Positions 19,241 to 63,778 of a stretch of 64,000 nt of DNA are shown piece after piece. The position numbers and the translations under genes are program-made. The stretch is from Affinundibacterium macrobrachii (lineage in GTDB: Bacteria; Pseudomonadota; Gammaproteobacteria; Burkholderiales; Burkholderiaceae_D): contig NZ_BMYT01000001.1 in NCBI RefSeq assembly GCF_014652415.1, positions 925,352 through 989,351 on the forward strand, read 5' to 3'. Under the pieces are notes generated by a model, which was not told where the DNA came from, ran no database searches, and was given only the letters and a program-made list of their open reading frames with translations. Numbering within the stretch: the stretch's first letter is position 1; each line of letters begins with the position of its first letter.

Positions 19241-19270
19241 AAAAAAAGCCGACACAAGGTCGGCTTTTTT
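19241..19270. terminator. Terminator downstream of icd
   Basis: A 12-bp stem (19242-19253 with 19259-19270, core GCCGAC/GTCGGC) with a 5-nt ACAAG loop is flanked by A and T runs. It lies about 150 bp past the icd stop, beyond a long palindrome, and may also back up the cold-shock terminator. Confidence 0.85.
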
Positions 19271-19288
19271 TACTAATACTCGACTGCA

Positions 19289-19416
19289 TTTTTAAGCCTC
19301 GGAAAATTCAATTATAGGGATGCAGCGCTAGGCGCTTCCCGCAGCAATACACAAGTATTGCGAGGACAAGCAACAACGCGATGTACCCTAGAATTGGACT
19401 TAACGACGCTTAAAAA
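19289..19416. repeat. Long imperfect palindrome abutting the icd stop codon (family copy A)
   Basis: The 128-bp element is an imperfect inverted repeat. Outer arms start TTTTTAAGC on the left and GCTTAAAAA on the right and continue inwards with several mismatches to CTAGGG-type sequence. The centre is a perfect hairpin, GCAATAC-ACAA-GTATTGC. It ends directly against the icd stop codon at 19417. Read in the icd direction its core is GCTTGTCCTCGCAATAC, shared almost exactly with the copy after parE (26712-26849). No ORF overlaps it. It is probably a structured 3'-UTR or a REP/BIME-like mobile repeat. Confidence 0.75.
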
Positions 19417-20670
19417 TTACATGTTTTCGATCATTACATCACCAAAGCCTGAACAAGACACTTGCGTAGCGCCTTCCATCAAACGGGCGAAGTCATAGGT
19501 TACTTTCTTCGCAGTGATCGCTTTTTCTGTAGATGAAATCAACAAGTCAGCAGCTTCAAACCAGCCCATGTGACGCAACATCATTTCCGCGGACAAAATC
19601 AATGAACCAGGGTTCACGTAATCTTTACCTGCATACTTCGGTGCTGTACCGTGAGTCGCTTCGAACATCGCGATAGAGTCAGACAAGTTTGCACCTGGAG
19701 CAATACCGATACCGCCAACTTGTGCAGCCAAAGCGTCAGAAATGTAATCGCCGTTCAAGTTCAATGTCGCGATAACGCTGTATTCTGCTGGACGCAACAA
19801 GATTTGCTGCAAGAATGCGTCAGCGATGGAATCCTTAACGATAATTTCTTTACCTGTTTTTGGATTCTTGAATTTGCACCATGGGCCGCCGTCGATCAAT
19901 TCAGCGCCGAATTCTTTTTGTGCCAATGCGTATGCCCAATCACGGAAGCCACCTTCGGTGTACTTCATGATGTTACCTTTGTGAACGATAGTCACGGATG
20001 GTTTGTCATTGTCGATTGCGTATTGAATCGCTTTACGTACCAAACGCTCTGTACCTTCGATAGAAACGGGTTTTACGCCAATACCAGAAGTTTCTGGGAA
20101 GCGGATTTTCTTGACGCCCATTTCTTCTTGCAAGAATTTAATCAATTTCTTAACTTGATCTGTACCTTGCGCAAATTCAACACCTGCGTAGATGTCTTCT
20201 GAGTTTTCACGGAAGATCACCATATCGGTTTTTTCTGGCTCACGTACTGGGGATGGCACGCCTTTGAAATAACGCACTGGACGCAAGCAAACATACAAAT
20301 CTAACTCTTGGCGCAAAGCCACGTTCAAAGAACGGATACCGCCGCCAACTGGTGTAGTCAAAGGACCTTTGATGGAAACAACGTAGTCTTTCAGCGCAGA
20401 CAAAGTTTCTTCTGGCAACCATACGTCTGGACCGTACACTTTCGTAGATTTTTCACCTGCAAAAATTTCCATCCAGCTGATTTTACGTTTGCCGCCGTAA
20501 GCTTTTGCAACCGCTGCATCCACCACCTTGATCATGACTGGGCTAATATCAACGCCAGTACCGTCACCTTCGATGTAAGGAATAATTGGATTTTCTGGAA
20601 CATTCAATGAGAAGTCAGCATTGACGGTAATTTTTTGGCCTTCTGCCGGTACTTTAATATGTTGATACAT
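19417..20670 (-). CDS. icd: NADP-dependent isocitrate dehydrogenase
   Basis: The 417-aa TCA-cycle enzyme oxidatively decarboxylates isocitrate to 2-oxoglutarate. The N-terminal [12 protein letters not shown] and the active-site loop [13 protein letters not shown] are intact. The serine in that loop is the residue phosphorylated by AceK in enteric bacteria, and [19 protein letters not shown] is the conserved metal/cofactor region. Length and sequence match the homodimeric bacterial Icd. It is monocistronic, converges with the cold-shock gene, and is divergent from the pseudouridine synthase gene. Confidence 0.97.
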
Positions 20671-24719: not shown

Positions 24720-26711
24720 ATGGCAACTAAAAAAACCACAACTCCATCCGACTACAGCGAATCATCCATCCGCGTCCTGAAAGGACTGGAACCTGTCAAA
24801 CAAAGACCTGGGATGTACACCCGCACCGAGAACCCGCTGCATATTATCCAAGAAGTCATCGACAATGCCTCTGACGAAGCTTTAGGCGGACATTGCAAAA
24901 ACATCCAAGTCACCCTGAACACTGATGGCAGTATCAGCGTAGAAGACGATGGGCGCGGCATTCCTGTCGGCTTACACCCTGAAGAAGGCGTTCCAACCGT
25001 CGAAATCGTATTTACCCGTTTGCATGCTGGCGGCAAATTCGACAAAGGTTCAGGCGGTGCTTATGCCTTCTCTGGCGGTTTGCACGGGGTGGGTGTCTCT
25101 GTCACGAATGCGCTTTCTAAGCGCTTAGAAATTACCGTATGGCGCGAAGGTGGATTACACAATCTCGTCTTTGCAGACGGCGAAGTCATTCAGCCATTAA
25201 GTACCCAGCCATTAGGTCGTGGCGATAAGAAAAACGGTACACGCGTCTCCGTCTGGCCCGATGGAAAATATTTTGATTCACCGAATATCTCCATCCCCGA
25301 AATGCAACGTTTATTGCGTTCGAAAGCCGTGCTGCTGCCAGGTGTCAAAGTCACTTTCACCAATGCGAAAACTGGCGAAAGTCAAACCTGGCAATACGAT
25401 CAAGGCTTGCGCGGTTATTTGACCGAAGCATTAACACAAGCCTCACACGGCGAGCTCGTCATTCCCATGTTTGAAGGCGAACAATTTGCCAATGCCGACG
25501 CCGATGGCTTTGCCGAAGGTGAGGGCGCATCATGGGTGGTTGCGTGGACGGAAGATGGCGGCGTCGTACGCGAATCCTATGTTAACTTGATTCCAACGCC
25601 GGCTGGCGGCACCCATGAATCGGGCTTACGCGAAGGTTTGTTCGGCGCGGTAAAAAGCTTCGCTGAAATGCATTCTTTGCTACCTAAAGGGGTCAAACTT
25701 TTACCAGAAGACGTGTTCGCCCGCGCCTCCTTTGTGCTGTCTGCAAAAGTATTAGATCCGCAATTCCAAGGGCAAATTAAAGAACGCTTGAATTCACGCG
25801 ATGCGGTGCGCTTAGTTTCGAGCTTCGCCAAACCGCCTTTAGAATTGTGGCTCAATTCGCACGTAGAGCTTGGTAAAAAACTCGCTGAACTAGTGATCAA
25901 ACAAGCGCAATCACGCTTACGTTCACTGCAAAAAGTCGAGAAGAAAAAATCCTCTGGCGTCGCCGTTTTGCCGGGCAAATTAACGGATTGCGAATCGAAC
26001 GACATCACTCGCAATGAATTGTTTTTAGTCGAAGGGGATTCCGCTGGTGGCTCAGCCAAAATGGGCCGCGATAAGGAATTTCAAGCAATTCTGCCATTGC
26101 GCGGTAAAGTGTTGAACTCATGGGAATCTGAACGCGATCGTCTGTTCGCCAACAATGAGATTCACGATATCGCCGTCGCGATTGGTGTCGATCCACACAG
26201 CATCAATGACAATATAGATCTGAGCAATCTACGTTACGGCAAGATCTGCATACTCTCAGATGCGGACGTGGATGGTTCGCATATTCAAGTCTTGTTATTG
26301 ACGCTGTTCTTCAAGCACTTTCCACAGCTGATCGCACGCGGTCATATTTGCATCGCCCGCCCTCCTCTATTCCGCGTTGACGCACCAGCGCGCGGTAAAA
26401 AACCAGCGCAGAAAATCTATGCACTGGATCAAGGAGAACTCACCGCGATCGAAGATAAATTGCGCAAAGACGGCGTCAAAGATGGGGCTTGGGCAATTTC
26501 TCGCTTTAAAGGCTTGGGCGAAATGAACGCGAACCAGTTATGGGAAACCACCATGAACCCGGACACACGTCGTTTATTGCCAGTAGCTCTGGGTGAATTC
26601 GATCAAGAATTTTCCGAAGGCCGCTTCAATATGCTGATGGGCAAAGGTGAAGCGTCGGCGCGTAAGGCTTGGCTGGAAGAGCATGGGAATGAGGTAGAAG
26701 CCGACATCTAG
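24720..26711 (+). CDS. parE: DNA topoisomerase IV subunit B
   Basis: The 663-aa ATPase subunit of topoisomerase IV unlinks replicated chromosomes. The GHKL ATPase begins LEPVKQRPGMYT, with EVIDNASDEA, EDDGRGIPVG and HGVGVSVTNALS. The TOPRIM domain has LVEGDSAGGSAKMGR and LSDADVDGSHIQVLLLT. The length and the absence of the GyrB-specific insert favour ParE over GyrB, and parC follows. The two genes are separated by a 232-bp spacer filled largely by a palindromic repeat that begins right after this stop codon. Confidence 0.96.
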   Translation: MATKKTTTPSDYSESSIRVLKGLEPVKQRPGMYTRTENPLHIIQEVIDNASDEALGGHCKNIQVTLNTDGSISVEDDGRGIPVGLHPEEGVPTVEIVFTRLHAGGKFDKGSGGAYAFSGGLHGVGVSVTNALSKRLEITVWREGGLHNLVFADGEVIQPLSTQPLGRGDKKNGTRVSVWPDGKYFDSPNISIPEMQRLLRSKAVLLPGVKVTFTNAKTGESQTWQYDQGLRGYLTEALTQASHGELVIPMFEGEQFANADADGFAEGEGASWVVAWTEDGGVVRESYVNLIPTPAGGTHESGLREGLFGAVKSFAEMHSLLPKGVKLLPEDVFARASFVLSAKVLDPQFQGQIKERLNSRDAVRLVSSFAKPPLELWLNSHVELGKKLAELVIKQAQSRLRSLQKVEKKKSSGVAVLPGKLTDCESNDITRNELFLVEGDSAGGSAKMGRDKEFQAILPLRGKVLNSWESERDRLFANNEIHDIAVAIGVDPHSINDNIDLSNLRYGKICILSDADVDGSHIQVLLLTLFFKHFPQLIARGHICIARPPLFRVDAPARGKKPAQKIYALDQGELTAIEDKLRKDGVKDGAWAISRFKGLGEMNANQLWETTMNPDTRRLLPVALGEFDQEFSEGRFNMLMGKGEASARKAWLEEHGNEVEADI

Positions 26712-26849
26712 CTTGTGGACTTCTAAAACCGCATACTTGGGCGAATTGCGGCGTTGCTTGTCCTCGCAATACTCCAGTATTGCTGCAGAATTTTACACAA
26801 GCGGCGCCTTGCACTTCATCCCAACTAAGCAGTTTTAGAAGCCCCCAAG
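26712..26849. repeat. Long imperfect palindrome abutting the parE stop codon (family copy B)
   Basis: The 138-bp inverted repeat starts one base after the parE stop. The outer arms (about 26712-26741 and 26820-26849) pair over some 30 bp with few mismatches and include TTCTAAAAC/GTTTTAGAA. The centre is CAATAC-TCCA-GTATTG. The internal core GCTTGTCCTCGCAATAC is shared with the copy after icd, in the same orientation relative to the upstream gene, but the outer arms are unrelated to that copy's arms. It lies inside the parE-parC unit. Confidence 0.75.
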
Positions 26850-33571: not shown

Positions 33572-33638
33572 GCCGCAGAGACACAAAGATCGCGGAGTTC
33601 TTTAAATTTTTCTCTGCAATCTCTGCGCCTCTGCGGCA
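33572..33638. repeat. Imperfect inverted repeat between hutH and hutD
   Basis: Arms of 26 bp (33572-33597 and 33613-33638, starting GCCGCAGAG and ending CTCTGCGGC) pair with several mismatches around a 15-bp centre. A related CCGCAGAGGCGC arm is found in the hutU-hutH spacer. The repeat may act as an intra-operon stem-loop. Confidence 0.7.
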
Positions 33639-33663
33639 AAAAAAACTAATGTGAAAGATTTAC

Positions 33664-35205: not shown

Positions 35206-35234
35206 ATTCTTGTCCTTTATCTTTACATTCTTTT

Positions 35235-35399
35235 CGCCGCAGAGGCGCTGAGTACGCGGAGTTTTTTGTTTGTCACTCCTGCGTAGGCAGGAGTCTAGTG
35301 TCTTCGGTCGCACTACCAACCTCACCGGATTCCCGCCTTCGCGGGAATGACATTAATAAGCTAATCGCTTTTCTCCGCGTACTCCGCGCCTCAGCGGAA
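35235..35399. repeat. Nested inverted-repeat cluster between hutU and hutH
   Basis: The spacer holds an outer imperfect inverted repeat of 25-bp arms (35237-35261 and 35373-35397, CCGCAGAGGCGC... and ...GCGCCTCAGCGG). Inside are two perfect 8-bp hairpins: ACTCCTGC-GTAG-GCAGGAGT (35275-35294) and ATTCCCGC-CTTC-GCGGGAAT (35329-35348). The two hairpins are bordered by GTCA and TGAC in head-to-head orientation, as in paired REP/BIME units. The ATTCCC...GGGAAT hairpin is like the dRS3-type repeat known from Neisseria. Confidence 0.8.
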
Positions 35400-35412
35400 A
35401 AATATTCAAAAT

Positions 35413-50055: not shown

Positions 50056-51375
50056 TCAAACACCATTCTGAACGCGCTTACGGACAAACTGTATGTGGCT
50101 TCGTAAGCCATATAACTCTTCTGCATAAGCTAAAGGAATAGAAATGTGATTCACTTTATTTTCGATTTCATTGAGTCTTTGTAATTGCTGTTGGGCGATT
50201 TGTTGCTTTTGCTCAGGCGATGCTTCATCTAGCGCGTGCTCTACCGCGCGCAATTGTCCATACCAACGATAGATACGCGAGCGCACACGCCACACATACA
50301 ATGGAGGAATAATTTTCGATAGCGGTAACGCCAATGCACCAAAGGCGATGAACAAGACCCACATACGCTCCAAGAAATTCGACATCCAAAAACTCAGATA
50401 TCGCTGCAAAAATGGTGGGCCACTTTTATAAAATTTTTCAGCCTGCGGTTCGACTGTAATTTCGGTATAACGGTCAGATGGGAATTCACCCTGCTTGCTA
50501 AACCAATTCGCGCCACCATGAATTTTCTTGGCAGCTTGCAAAAATAAACTGATTAAAGCTGGATGCAAACTTTCATGTGCGACCAAGGTCGCAGTCGGTG
50601 AAATTAAATGGTAATCGCGTGAAGGAATATCTCTTCCCATATCGACAATACCACGTGGCAGCACCACGTGCGACAAAAATGGAAAGCGACGGGTATAAGC
50701 TTCTGCCTGTACAAAATCAAATAACTTGACACCCGGCGTTTGTAATAGCATCTGAATCAATTGTGAATCCGATGCCGAACTCATTACCAACACATCGATC
50801 TGTTCATTCACAAATGCAACCGTTGCTGGCGTGCTCTCCAACTGATGTATCTCTAATTGATTTTCATCCAGATTATTCACTGACAGAAGCTGTTGAAATA
50901 AACGTCGCACGCCAAATCCATCAGGGCCAACATTCACACGCTTAGCTTTGAACTCGGTTAAGCTCGTGACTTCTTTTTTACCTCGATAAAATATCCAGAT
51001 CGGTTCGTAAAATAAACTACCTAAAGAAATCAAACCTTTTTCTTGGGCATCTTTCTCCGTCGTTGAGCCACTCTGCACAAAGCCAATATCAATCTTTGAA
51101 TCCAAGTCAGCGATGTGTTGTAGATTTTCTTGCGATCCTTGCGATTTGTGAATACGCAAGGTAATTTGGTTCTGCGCTAATTCTTCTGCATACTGCTTTG
51201 CAAAGCGTTCGTAAGCGCTATTTTCCTGCCCCGCACTAAAGTCCAATGTTCTACCCGGTGCTGGGTCAACCACATAATAGGCTGCCAGTATCACCGCAAT
51301 AATCATCAGCGCAATCGGGCCAAATGCAATCAAGGCATCTTTGGTAGAAATCAGCGTAAATTTAATCTTAGGCAT
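50056..51375 (-). CDS. TAXI-family solute-binding protein with two membrane anchors
   Basis: The 439-aa protein has an N-terminal transmembrane segment (about 14-36) and a TAXI-type periplasmic binding domain (about 45-320: FSAGQENSAYERFAKQY, IGFVQSGS, VNVGPDGFGVRRL, LVMSSASDS). A second transmembrane segment (about 340-362) and a cytoplasmic coiled-coil tail (about 365-439, rich in glutamine) follow. Classical TAXI proteins are free periplasmic partners of TRAP carriers; this one is tethered on both sides, and no TRAP permease gene is nearby. It may work as a sensor or scaffold. The gene is preceded by a 9-bp tandem repeat ending 26 bp before the ATG. Confidence 0.82.
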   Translation of the reverse strand: MPKIKFTLISTKDALIAFGPIALMIIAVILAAYYVVDPAPGRTLDFSAGQENSAYERFAKQYAEELAQNQITLRIHKSQGSQENLQHIADLDSKIDIGFVQSGSTTEKDAQEKGLISLGSLFYEPIWIFYRGKKEVTSLTEFKAKRVNVGPDGFGVRRLFQQLLSVNNLDENQLEIHQLESTPATVAFVNEQIDVLVMSSASDSQLIQMLLQTPGVKLFDFVQAEAYTRRFPFLSHVVLPRGIVDMGRDIPSRDYHLISPTATLVAHESLHPALISLFLQAAKKIHGGANWFSKQGEFPSDRYTEITVEPQAEKFYKSGPPFLQRYLSFWMSNFLERMWVLFIAFGALALPLSKIIPPLYVWRVRSRIYRWYGQLRAVEHALDEASPEQKQQIAQQQLQRLNEIENKVNHISIPLAYAEELYGLRSHIQFVRKRVQNGV

Positions 51376-51400
51376 CGTTTATAAAAACCAAGTTGATATG

Positions 51401-51472
51401 ATCCATTTGATCCATTTGATCCATTTGATCCATTTGATCCATTTGATCCATTTGATCCGATTGATCCAAGCG
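51401..51472. repeat. 9-bp tandem repeat ATCCATTTG
   Basis: Six perfect units (51401-51454) and two diverged ones (51455-51472) fill most of the 103-bp spacer between the CinA-like gene and the TAXI gene. They lie immediately upstream of the TAXI start codon (51375). Such repeats change copy number by slippage and here would alter the leader or promoter spacing. 9 bp is a multiple of three, but the repeat is outside the coding frame. Confidence 0.92.
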
Positions 51473-51478
51473 ATTTCA

Positions 51479-52267
51479 CTAAGCTAGTTTTTGATACTCT
51501 GATTGAAATTGATCTAAGCCTTGCAACATGTCAGCAAACGCCAATTGCACTTGCGTTGGATCGCCTTTAACGCCTAACTCAATATGCCGTCGCATTGTGT
51601 CGGTTCCAACACTGGGCAAACTAAACACTTTGATTAATGGATAACGCGATTCAAGTTCTTCCATCATCGGCGTTAACAAGGATTCTGCAACTTCGAATAC
51701 TAATACCGCTTTTTCATCAGAGGCCTGTTGATGAAATAGATGTGCGTAGTGTGTATCCAACACCCAAGCAATCATTGGCCACGCCATTACTGGAAACCCT
51801 GGTACAAAATAATGCTGCTGTATGGCAAAGCCCGGAATTTTATTGAATGGATTAGGGATAATATCGGCACCTTCAGGAAACTCCCCCATTTTCAATCGAT
51901 GTAAATGATCTGGGCTATTGAGATCAAGCGCATGTTCAGATCCTACATGCATCTCGGTAATGCGCTCTTGAATAAGTTTTTTTGCCTCAGGATGCAAGAC
52001 TATCGGCAATCCCAAAGCTGCCGCTGCACACTGGCGAGTATGATCGTCAGGTGTCGCACCAATTCCACCAGTACTAAAAACAATATCACCACTGGCAAAG
52101 CTGCGCTTGAGTAGATTAGTGATTCGAACGCGATCATCACCAACATACTCAGCCCAATCCAAGCTCAAGCCACGTTCCTTCAGAATCTCAATCACTTTCG
52201 GCAAATGTTGGTCTATCCTTTTGCCAGAGAGAATTTCATCGCCAATAATAATTAAACCAATTCCCAT
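51479..52267 (-). CDS. CinA-N / MoCF-type molybdopterin-binding domain protein
   Basis: The 262-aa protein consists of a MoaB/Mog-like domain (about 1-170): IGDEILSGKRIDQHLPKVIEIL and IVFSTGGIGATPDDHTRQCAAAALG are diagnostic of the CinA N-terminal half. It lacks the C-terminal PncC amidase domain of full CinA. The molecular role of such stand-alone proteins is unclear (nucleotide-derivative hydrolysis or molybdopterin binding). The ATG at 52265-52267 has AGGAG six bases upstream and is preferred over the GTG just before it. It lies 9 bp after the EI24 gene, so they form one operon. Confidence 0.85.
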   Translation of the reverse strand: MGIGLIIIGDEILSGKRIDQHLPKVIEILKERGLSLDWAEYVGDDRVRITNLLKRSFASGDIVFSTGGIGATPDDHTRQCAAAALGLPIVLHPEAKKLIQERITEMHVGSEHALDLNSPDHLHRLKMGEFPEGADIIPNPFNKIPGFAIQQHYFVPGFPVMAWPMIAWVLDTHYAHLFHQQASDEKAVLVFEVAESLLTPMMEELESRYPLIKVFSLPSVGTDTMRRHIELGVKGDPTQVQLAFADMLQGLDQFQSEYQKLA

Positions 52268-52276
52268 CACTTACTC

Positions 52277-63170: not shown

Positions 63171-63778
63171 AATGTCTCCAGATTTTCTAATTTTTTTGAT
63201 GTGGTTTGCTAGGGCCTGTTAACATTTAAATTGGGAGTGCGAATGTGGAAAAACGGGCACAGGGCTAGGCGTCAAGGCGCGCGGCAGTGCAAGCACTGTA
63301 AGCGACTTGCAACAACGCCATGTGCCCGTTTTTCCCATTCCCGAAGGGTTCAAGCCAAAACGCGCGATGGACAGCGTTGTAGCTCTTGCCGAGGCACCTG
63401 CCTCGGCGGCGAACTACGCCTTGCCATCCCACCTTTTGGCTTGAACGCATCTCCCAATTTAAACGTTAACAGGCCCTAGTCCTTGACCAAAATCAAATCA
63501 CGAGCTCTCATGCTAAGCGAGTTTATATTCATGTCGCAAGCGCCACAGTCGGTTAACATTCGAAATGAACAACACTTTCTAGAAAAGTTTGGTGAAATTT
63601 CACACAAACCAGTAGTCCAAAGTTATTTACGGCAAATTTCATGCGGTTCGCGTTATAAAGTAACACTTACGTCGCAGAAATTTTCGAATTGTCGATAGCT
63701 CATCTACACTTCTCTATATCGAGCGAGATCTAATTTATAAAAAGACGCTACTGCACAATTCAACTTTGTTTCTCTCAA
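63171..63778. other. Intergenic region holding a repeat element
   Basis: The 608-bp spacer between the DUF2189 gene and the next membrane-protein gene contains the composite element 63209-63479 and about 300 bp of AT-rich sequence without a convincing ORF. A 71-codon frame starting with TTG at 63483 shows no recognisable protein. Confidence 0.6.
63209..63479. mobile_element. 271-bp MITE-like element with 29-bp terminal inverted repeats
   Basis: The ends 63209-63237 and 63451-63479 are inverted repeats with one mismatch in 29 bp (CTAGGGCCTGTTAAC at the outside). Inside are two head-to-head palindromes. One is 63247-63335 with 15-bp perfect arms (GGAAAAACGGGCACA) and a CAGTGC-AA-GCACTG centre. 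The other is 63348-63446 with 13-bp perfect arms (GTTCAAGCCAAAA) and a GCCGAGGCA-CC-TGCCTCGGC centre. Internal motifs GCTAGGCG and GCAACAACGC match the palindrome after icd. No transposase is encoded. Confidence 0.8.

Follow-up and report, generated by a model that had tools for sequence, protein, structure and literature searches.

The imperfect palindrome that follows icd belongs to a real and widespread repeat family of the MITE/REP kind, and is best read as a dispersed, non-autonomous mobile DNA palindrome of ~100-110 bp (core and inner arms) with outer inverted ends of ~13 nt. Its unusual properties are, from the surest down, its orientation and position relative to stop codons and its site-specific ends of near-fixed length, both directly observed, followed by the copying of the target in inverted form, which we infer. 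Comparison of the copies leads us to favor a MITE-like element whose ends would come to repeat the target flank in inverted form, a reading to which we assign a probability of about one half.

Within the window (the whole stretch of 64,000 nucleotides analysed here), the element occupies positions 19289-19416 on the minus strand and reads in the same direction as icd (19417-20670, minus strand; NADP-dependent isocitrate dehydrogenase, assigned by ORF and NCBIfam match). The initial annotation placed the start of the palindrome exactly at the icd stop, and this is correct, with the icd ORF ending at 19417 and the palindrome adjoining it. A covariance model of the family (R1, described below) scores the copy at 120 bits over 19291-19416. 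From its 5’ side, it consists of a copy-specific outer arm immediately 3’ of the icd stop (19402-19416; sequence and arm-length analysis), an inner arm (19389-19401) with the sequence AAGTCCAATTCTA (family consensus AAATCCAATT), a conserved core (19317-19388) with asymmetric internal loops and a co-varying middle stem, a 3’ inner arm (19304-19316), and a 3’ outer arm (19289-19303) that pairs with 19402-19416. The core encloses a central hairpin, GCAATAC-TTGT-GTATTGC (19344-19361); inner arms, core and hairpin were delimited by alignment and pair counts. The predicted fold of this copy was more stable than that of dinucleotide-shuffled sequences (z = -5.3 with DNA and -6.2 with RNA parameters). 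Downstream, the element is followed by a terminator-like hairpin (19241-19271), which also separates it from a cspA thermoregulator RNA (RF01766; 18713-19067) lying convergent with icd.

A second copy (26711-26848, plus strand; R1 73 bits), with a middle stem ~12 bases longer and diverged arms, follows parE (24720-26711, plus strand; topoisomerase IV subunit B, assigned by ORF and NCBIfam match, the top model TIGR01055 giving 704 bits against a cut-off of 723, slightly short). As the initial annotation had noted, the cores of the two copies are nearly alike, with 17 bases, GCTTGTCCTCGCAATAC, identical between 19355-19371 (minus strand) and 26756-26772 (plus strand). Allowing up to three mismatches, this 17-mer had two matches in the window, as compared with a mean of 0.22 in shuffled sequences, of which 3/100 had at least two. 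Arm comparison also bore out the claim that the two copies differ in their outer arms and that each set of arms nevertheless pairs with itself. Of the "four copies" counted in that annotation, these two are genuine, and the other two are distant relatives of the palindrome, one with a different central hairpin (63228-63355, minus strand; 42 bits) and one at 63336-63456 (plus strand; 29 bits). Both lie in a MITE-like unit (63209-63479) with 29-nt terminal repeats (CTAGGGCCTGTTAAC...), in which the two palindromes face opposite ways. Elsewhere in the window, a 9-bp repeat, ATTTGATCC, forms a short array at 51387-51476, between minus-strand ORFs at 50056-51375 and 51479-52270.

The R1 model was built from 16 own-genome copies, including that of icd (the alignment omitted L036 and also L032, which is the parE copy). 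It detected 26 places scoring above 65 bits in the genome, in addition to two relatives with a different central hairpin; BLAST with the core found 18 copies in 26 rows. The search of genome and relatives suggested by the initial annotation, performed with this 16-copy model, further yielded matches in 41/43 Undibacterium genomes, at 0 to 54 per genome, counts that include opposite-strand readings of one palindrome. Across the GTDB family, matches at E ≤ 0.001 occurred in 132 of the 245 sampled genomes and in 28/44 genera. Presence of the element is patchy among close species. The nearest named relatives place the genome in Undibacterium (icd 97% identical in U. flavidum), and among 80 named icd loci the element was found only in that of U. 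flavidum. A similar core was found in six copies from two further genera (L362-L367), and four of these are located in MITE-like units with very different ends. No Rfam family reached its gathering score on the element anywhere in the 64-kb window, and in a search at E ≤ 10 of 6 of the 18 own-genome copy loci the matches on the element did not come near such a score. Titles and the openings of abstracts, with subscription journals thinly covered, revealed no paper on this element family.

Members of the family fall into two types. Type A, a sister subtype that resembles an ordinary MITE, is present in other species of the genus (genomes G013, G015, G030, G032 and G036); its copies have fixed 12-nt ends, GGGAACTTCTAA, and direct 4-bp repeats in most, though not all, of the flanks inspected by eye, and thus the common terminal repeats and direct duplication that characterize MITEs. 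In G013, G015, G032 and G036, type A end pairs are spaced 105-145 bp apart, and no facing pair (up to one mismatch) was found in these genomes at the distance of an insertion sequence, as an autonomous partner would have. Type B, the kind found in the window, has copy-specific outer arms and lacks terminal inverted repeats common to all members. Examination by eye of the flanks of further type B copies, whose exact ends are not defined by close filled/empty pairs, showed no direct repeats. A single fixed arm sequence, which the initial annotation had held would speak against its view, is found in type A only.

Type B copies occur at the 3’ ends of genes and in one orientation. For 25/26 own-genome copies, the stop of a same-strand gene falls in the interval from 2 nt inside the inner-arm boundary (AAATCC) to 17 nt before it, and on the far side of the 26 copies no convergent stop was equally near among the two longest ORFs listed per side. 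Among 60 further copies from other genomes, 34 of the 39 type B copies were positioned at -2 to +17 nt, as compared with 0/21 type A copies; one convergent stop lay equally near on the far side of the 39 (among the one or two longest ORFs listed). The commonest distance from stop to boundary was 12-14 nt (57 of 131 type B copies; the copy sets contain orthologs, so that copies are not independent). The upstream genes include icd, parE, yebC, argB, gdhA, pyk, ffh, rpsJ, rpmH, iscS, gcvH, cmk, ubiU, mutL, queA, ahcY, purH, holA, icmF and prpC (gdhA, parE and a partial icmF scoring below the cut-offs of their nearest NCBIfam models). The gene upstream of copy L047, which had no NCBIfam match, we take to be rimI. 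The C-termini of the upstream proteins were mostly the same as in element-free orthologs, with the exception of queA and cmk: at these loci (L067 and L062, respectively) a new stop, aTAAATCC, and a few extra C-terminal residues are derived from the element.

A second palindrome family (CCGCAGAGGCGC...) is present in the window at 33612-33645, 35228-35261 and 35373-35402, the first and third of these lying 18 and 10 nt, respectively, past the stops of minus-strand ORFs. In the genome as a whole, a stop was found 8-49 nt away at 21/30 CCGCAGAGGCGC loci (searching up to 60 nt), some of the 30 being paired ends of a single unit. Palindromes of this kind in other species occur at gene ends without an icd-type element. 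Since this family too lies near stops, the preference for stops may in part be a property of the host.

The outer arms of type B copies pair over a short and nearly constant length. In a set of 131 copies, from which those below 60-70 bits with a simple profile were dropped, complementarity, counting outward from the boundary, was 0.44-0.80 at 2-13 nt and dropped to 0.23 at 14 nt, as compared with a baseline of 0.25-0.33 for arms swapped between copies (0.58 at 2 nt). When gaps were allowed, pairing extended outward for 11-14 nt in 89/131 copies versus 174/2000 swapped pairs. The same extent was found in 61 of 75 well-aligned copies whose stop distances ranged from -2 to 31 nt; without gaps, the outer arms paired weakly (0.21-0.50 at 3-13 nt) in the 24 copies with a stop no more than 4 nt away. 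Arms of paralogs within one genome were 0.20-0.30 identical in every class of core identity, the upper classes holding 27 pairs at 85-90% and only 2 above 90%. In orthologs, 5’ arms were 0.39-0.49 identical where cores were less than 90% identical and 0.81 above this (38 pairs). Random identity between paralogs, together with higher identity between orthologs, indicates that arm sequence is tied to the site and not to the lineage of the core. These patterns suggest that the ~13-base ends may be made at the site of insertion.

If the arm includes the stop codon, the opposite arm often mirrors it: in 19/35 such copies, representing ten of about twenty gene ends, the far arm carried the complement of the same stop to within one base. 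At larger distances mirrored stops were found in 3/63 copies (11-14 nt) and in 0/12 beyond. At yebC the far arm tracks lineage-specific codons, matching TTGAG TAA in G006, TAA GATG in G000 and G001 and, lacking one base, TTTGG-C TGA in G038; host codons are likewise mirrored at argB. Mirrored outer arms were absent from ech (G000), from the newer icd copy of G038 and from a thiolase gene (G000, G006). Mirroring is thus common and not universal. In the G038 case, the icd 3’ end holds tandem copies (L107), of which the one adjoining the stop seems the newer and lies before the older copy. Decayed forms were also observed, for example deletion derivatives at the 3’ end of ech in which most of the palindrome between the arms is gone (L173 in G001, L172 in G007), and a degenerate copy at the 3’ end of parE in G032 (L161), with paired arms and no central hairpin.

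Copying of the flank in inverted form, one of the possibilities raised in the initial annotation, fits these data best, since the arms are site-specific, extend ~13 nt largely regardless of where the stop lies, and often mirror it; the mechanism that follows is itself inferred from the arms. During insertion or later, the 5’ flank would serve as template for the 3’ end of the folded element, by fold-back or template-switch synthesis, so that ~13 nt of the left flank, with the stop codon if within reach, would be repeated in inverted form on the right. Either this hairpin-directed correction or selection on the DNA hairpin would then maintain matched changes in the stem. As a stem in the 3’-UTR, the element may also act on the mRNA as REPs do in E. 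coli, which we take to be a side effect. Some observations count against fold-back, among them the copies that lack mirrored arms and the weak ungapped pairing where the stop is close: at filled sites, at least 9 of 11 outer bases were complementary across the element in only 32/74 cases, and stem positions changed on both sides were not arranged in blocks (7 adjacent, 8.3 expected). Multi-base template switching thus found no support in the block test, which is little informative because correction of a single mismatch alters one pair. Comparison with empty orthologs showed the 5’ arm to be native host sequence clearly at prpC only, with the other genes giving no clear answer, and an apparent result at L047 was rejected because its "empty" partner in G007 was a degraded filled copy.

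A fuller version of this proposal, in which fold-back copying of the left flank generates a near-fixed inverted target duplication of ~13 nt, a process linked to the end of translation or transcription places the element at stops, and related cores may seed new palindromic elements, is tentative, and we hold it to be on balance doubtful. The seeding of new elements is suggested by two further genera in which related cores lie at the center of MITE-like units whose ends differ.

In the main alternative account of the arms, a rather unlikely one in which the ends are inherited, a MITE with terminal repeats derived from an ancestor like GGGAACTTCTAT inserts at stops, and its ends then drift together, their complementarity being preserved through selection on a hairpin in the DNA or through quasipalindrome correction. 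The fixed ends and mostly 4-bp direct repeats of type A are what such an ancestor would have, and type B arms carry a weak consensus, GGnAC.TCTAT, that resembles the type A end (information content no higher than 0.32 bits at positions 3-13), with 457/1310 positions alike in both arms but unlike the type A end. The arms at cmk and queA also look derived from the element, as the added C-termini indicate. However, the random identity of paralog arms would demand a much quicker turnover of the ends than of the core, the type B flanks inspected by eye showed no direct repeats, and the mirrored host codons at yebC and argB would be unexpected if the ends were inherited.

A functional RNA hairpin in the 3’-UTR, acting as a REP-like ribosome brake or 3’ end protector and kept by selection on RNA pairing, would agree with the fixed orientation and stop distance of the element and with its strong RNA fold, and a parallel exists in E. 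coli, where REPs are reported to reduce translation only at distances below 16 nt from the stop codon (PMC12306157). The stems do co-vary. In the 16 aligned copies, 90.6% of the cells at 38 pairs were paired, and 88 cells were changed on both sides, as compared with 28.7 in shuffled alignments (0/500 as high) and 12-22 with slid partners, upholding the earlier claim that the arms change together while pairing is kept. Inner arms paired at 10.9/13 positions within a copy and at 8.5/13 when exchanged between copies. The central hairpin and the asymmetric internal loops are conserved across copies, and variants in the loop region are linked (GTTGTT with CCTAGC, GGCGTT with CCTTGC).

A hairpin selected as sense RNA is expected to favor G.U pairs strongly over A.C mismatches. 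Across 154 copies (selected by the same score limit, with the parE copy and the icd and parE copies found only in ortholog gene-end comparisons outside the set), 32 variable pair columns of the inner arm and core contained 4,703 Watson-Crick pairs, 35 G.T and 66 A.C on the sense strand, totals that omit columns 20/109, 26/103, 41/88, 50/79, 51/78 and 52/77. G.U was therefore not in excess over A.C. We dropped the surplus of A.C as a signal of strand, because two A.C-rich columns (21/108 and 22/107) carry much of it; without them the counts were 33 G.T and 45 A.C, and in the own genome alone 14 versus 16. Three core pairs (41/88, 51/78 and 54/75) are conserved wobbles, G.T on the sense strand, with no A.C, one of them alternating between U-A and G.U, which favors RNA selection there; conserved A.C positions also exist (20/109, 32/96). 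With A.C at least as frequent as G.U, folded sense RNA is the least supported of the options put forward in the initial annotation, retaining the conserved core wobbles in its favor and losing the variable pairs. Patchy presence between close species and uncompensated outer-arm mismatches in some icd and ubiU orthologs also argue against it, and we regard this explanation as improbable. We conclude from the pair counts that RNA selection is not what chiefly maintains the pairing of the arms, and draw no such conclusion for the core.

Insertion of the core into the tip of a pre-existing hairpin, with arms older than the element, would account for self-complementary, site-specific arms and for the single orientation, and is very improbable: of 73 gene ends scored as empty (genes other than icd), some of which are degraded copies or hold other palindromes, 9 carried, close to the stop, an 11-nt arm in which 9 or more bases were complementary (shuffling predicts 2.9), including pyk in G029, where the hairpin starts at the stop codon, and these raised our estimate only marginally, as most begin at least 9 nt past the stop and are terminator-like, 64/73 ends had nothing comparable, and 21/30 icd loci lack the element and have ordinary 3’ ends by eye.

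The family shares features with several known systems. REPs and REPINs, associated with RAYT (Y1 tyrosine) transposases, are likewise dispersed palindromes of 3’ regions near stops, and many E. coli REPs lie 1-20 nt from the 3’ end of an ORF (PMC12306157). However, REPs measure 20-40 bp (PMC3733652), as compared with the ~125-bp palindrome and copy-specific ends of the present element, whose copy number shows no clear relation to that of Y1 transposases. The latter were found in 42/43 genomes, including G012 (5 matches), which has no copy of the element. Copy number and Y1 count were weakly correlated (Spearman 0.40); both also scale with genome size, which confounds the link to RAYTs. The size range of roughly 100-155 bp and the terminal inverted repeats of ERIC/IRU, Correia (NEMIS) and RUP elements are similar; a table in the review PMC2229807 credits these elements with target duplications and with terminal inverted repeats that have TA at the ends, and the same source reports that the orientation of ERIC decides its effect on the upstream mRNA. 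Type A resembles such MITEs, whereas type B has no common ends and no visible duplication.

The attC sites of integron cassettes also keep a structure while their arm sequence varies, and lie directly after stops in one orientation. In attC, however, the outer boxes are conserved (R boxes RYYYAAC/GTTRRRY) and the middle is variable, whereas here the middle is conserved and the outside variable, no conserved R-type box was found in the outer arms (at most 0.32 bits at positions 3-13), and the copies are scattered over housekeeping genes rather than arrayed. Template-switch (quasipalindrome) mutation, which creates or perfects inverted repeats by copying the opposite arm, comes close to the flank copying proposed here; it is a general process, and the available text of PMC8794818 does not tie it to a mobile core, a reach of ~13 nt or stop codons.

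Insertion of a mobile element normally produces direct repeats of the target, and the origin of palindromic MITEs is, to our knowledge, an open question. If the copying of the flank is correct, the inverted, site-specific repeat of near-fixed length would represent a new insertion signature and a route to palindromic MITEs. It would also mean that co-varying stems beside genes, the usual mark of a selected RNA, can have a cause at the DNA level, for which the comparison of G.U with A.C mismatches may serve as a simple check for RNA selection.
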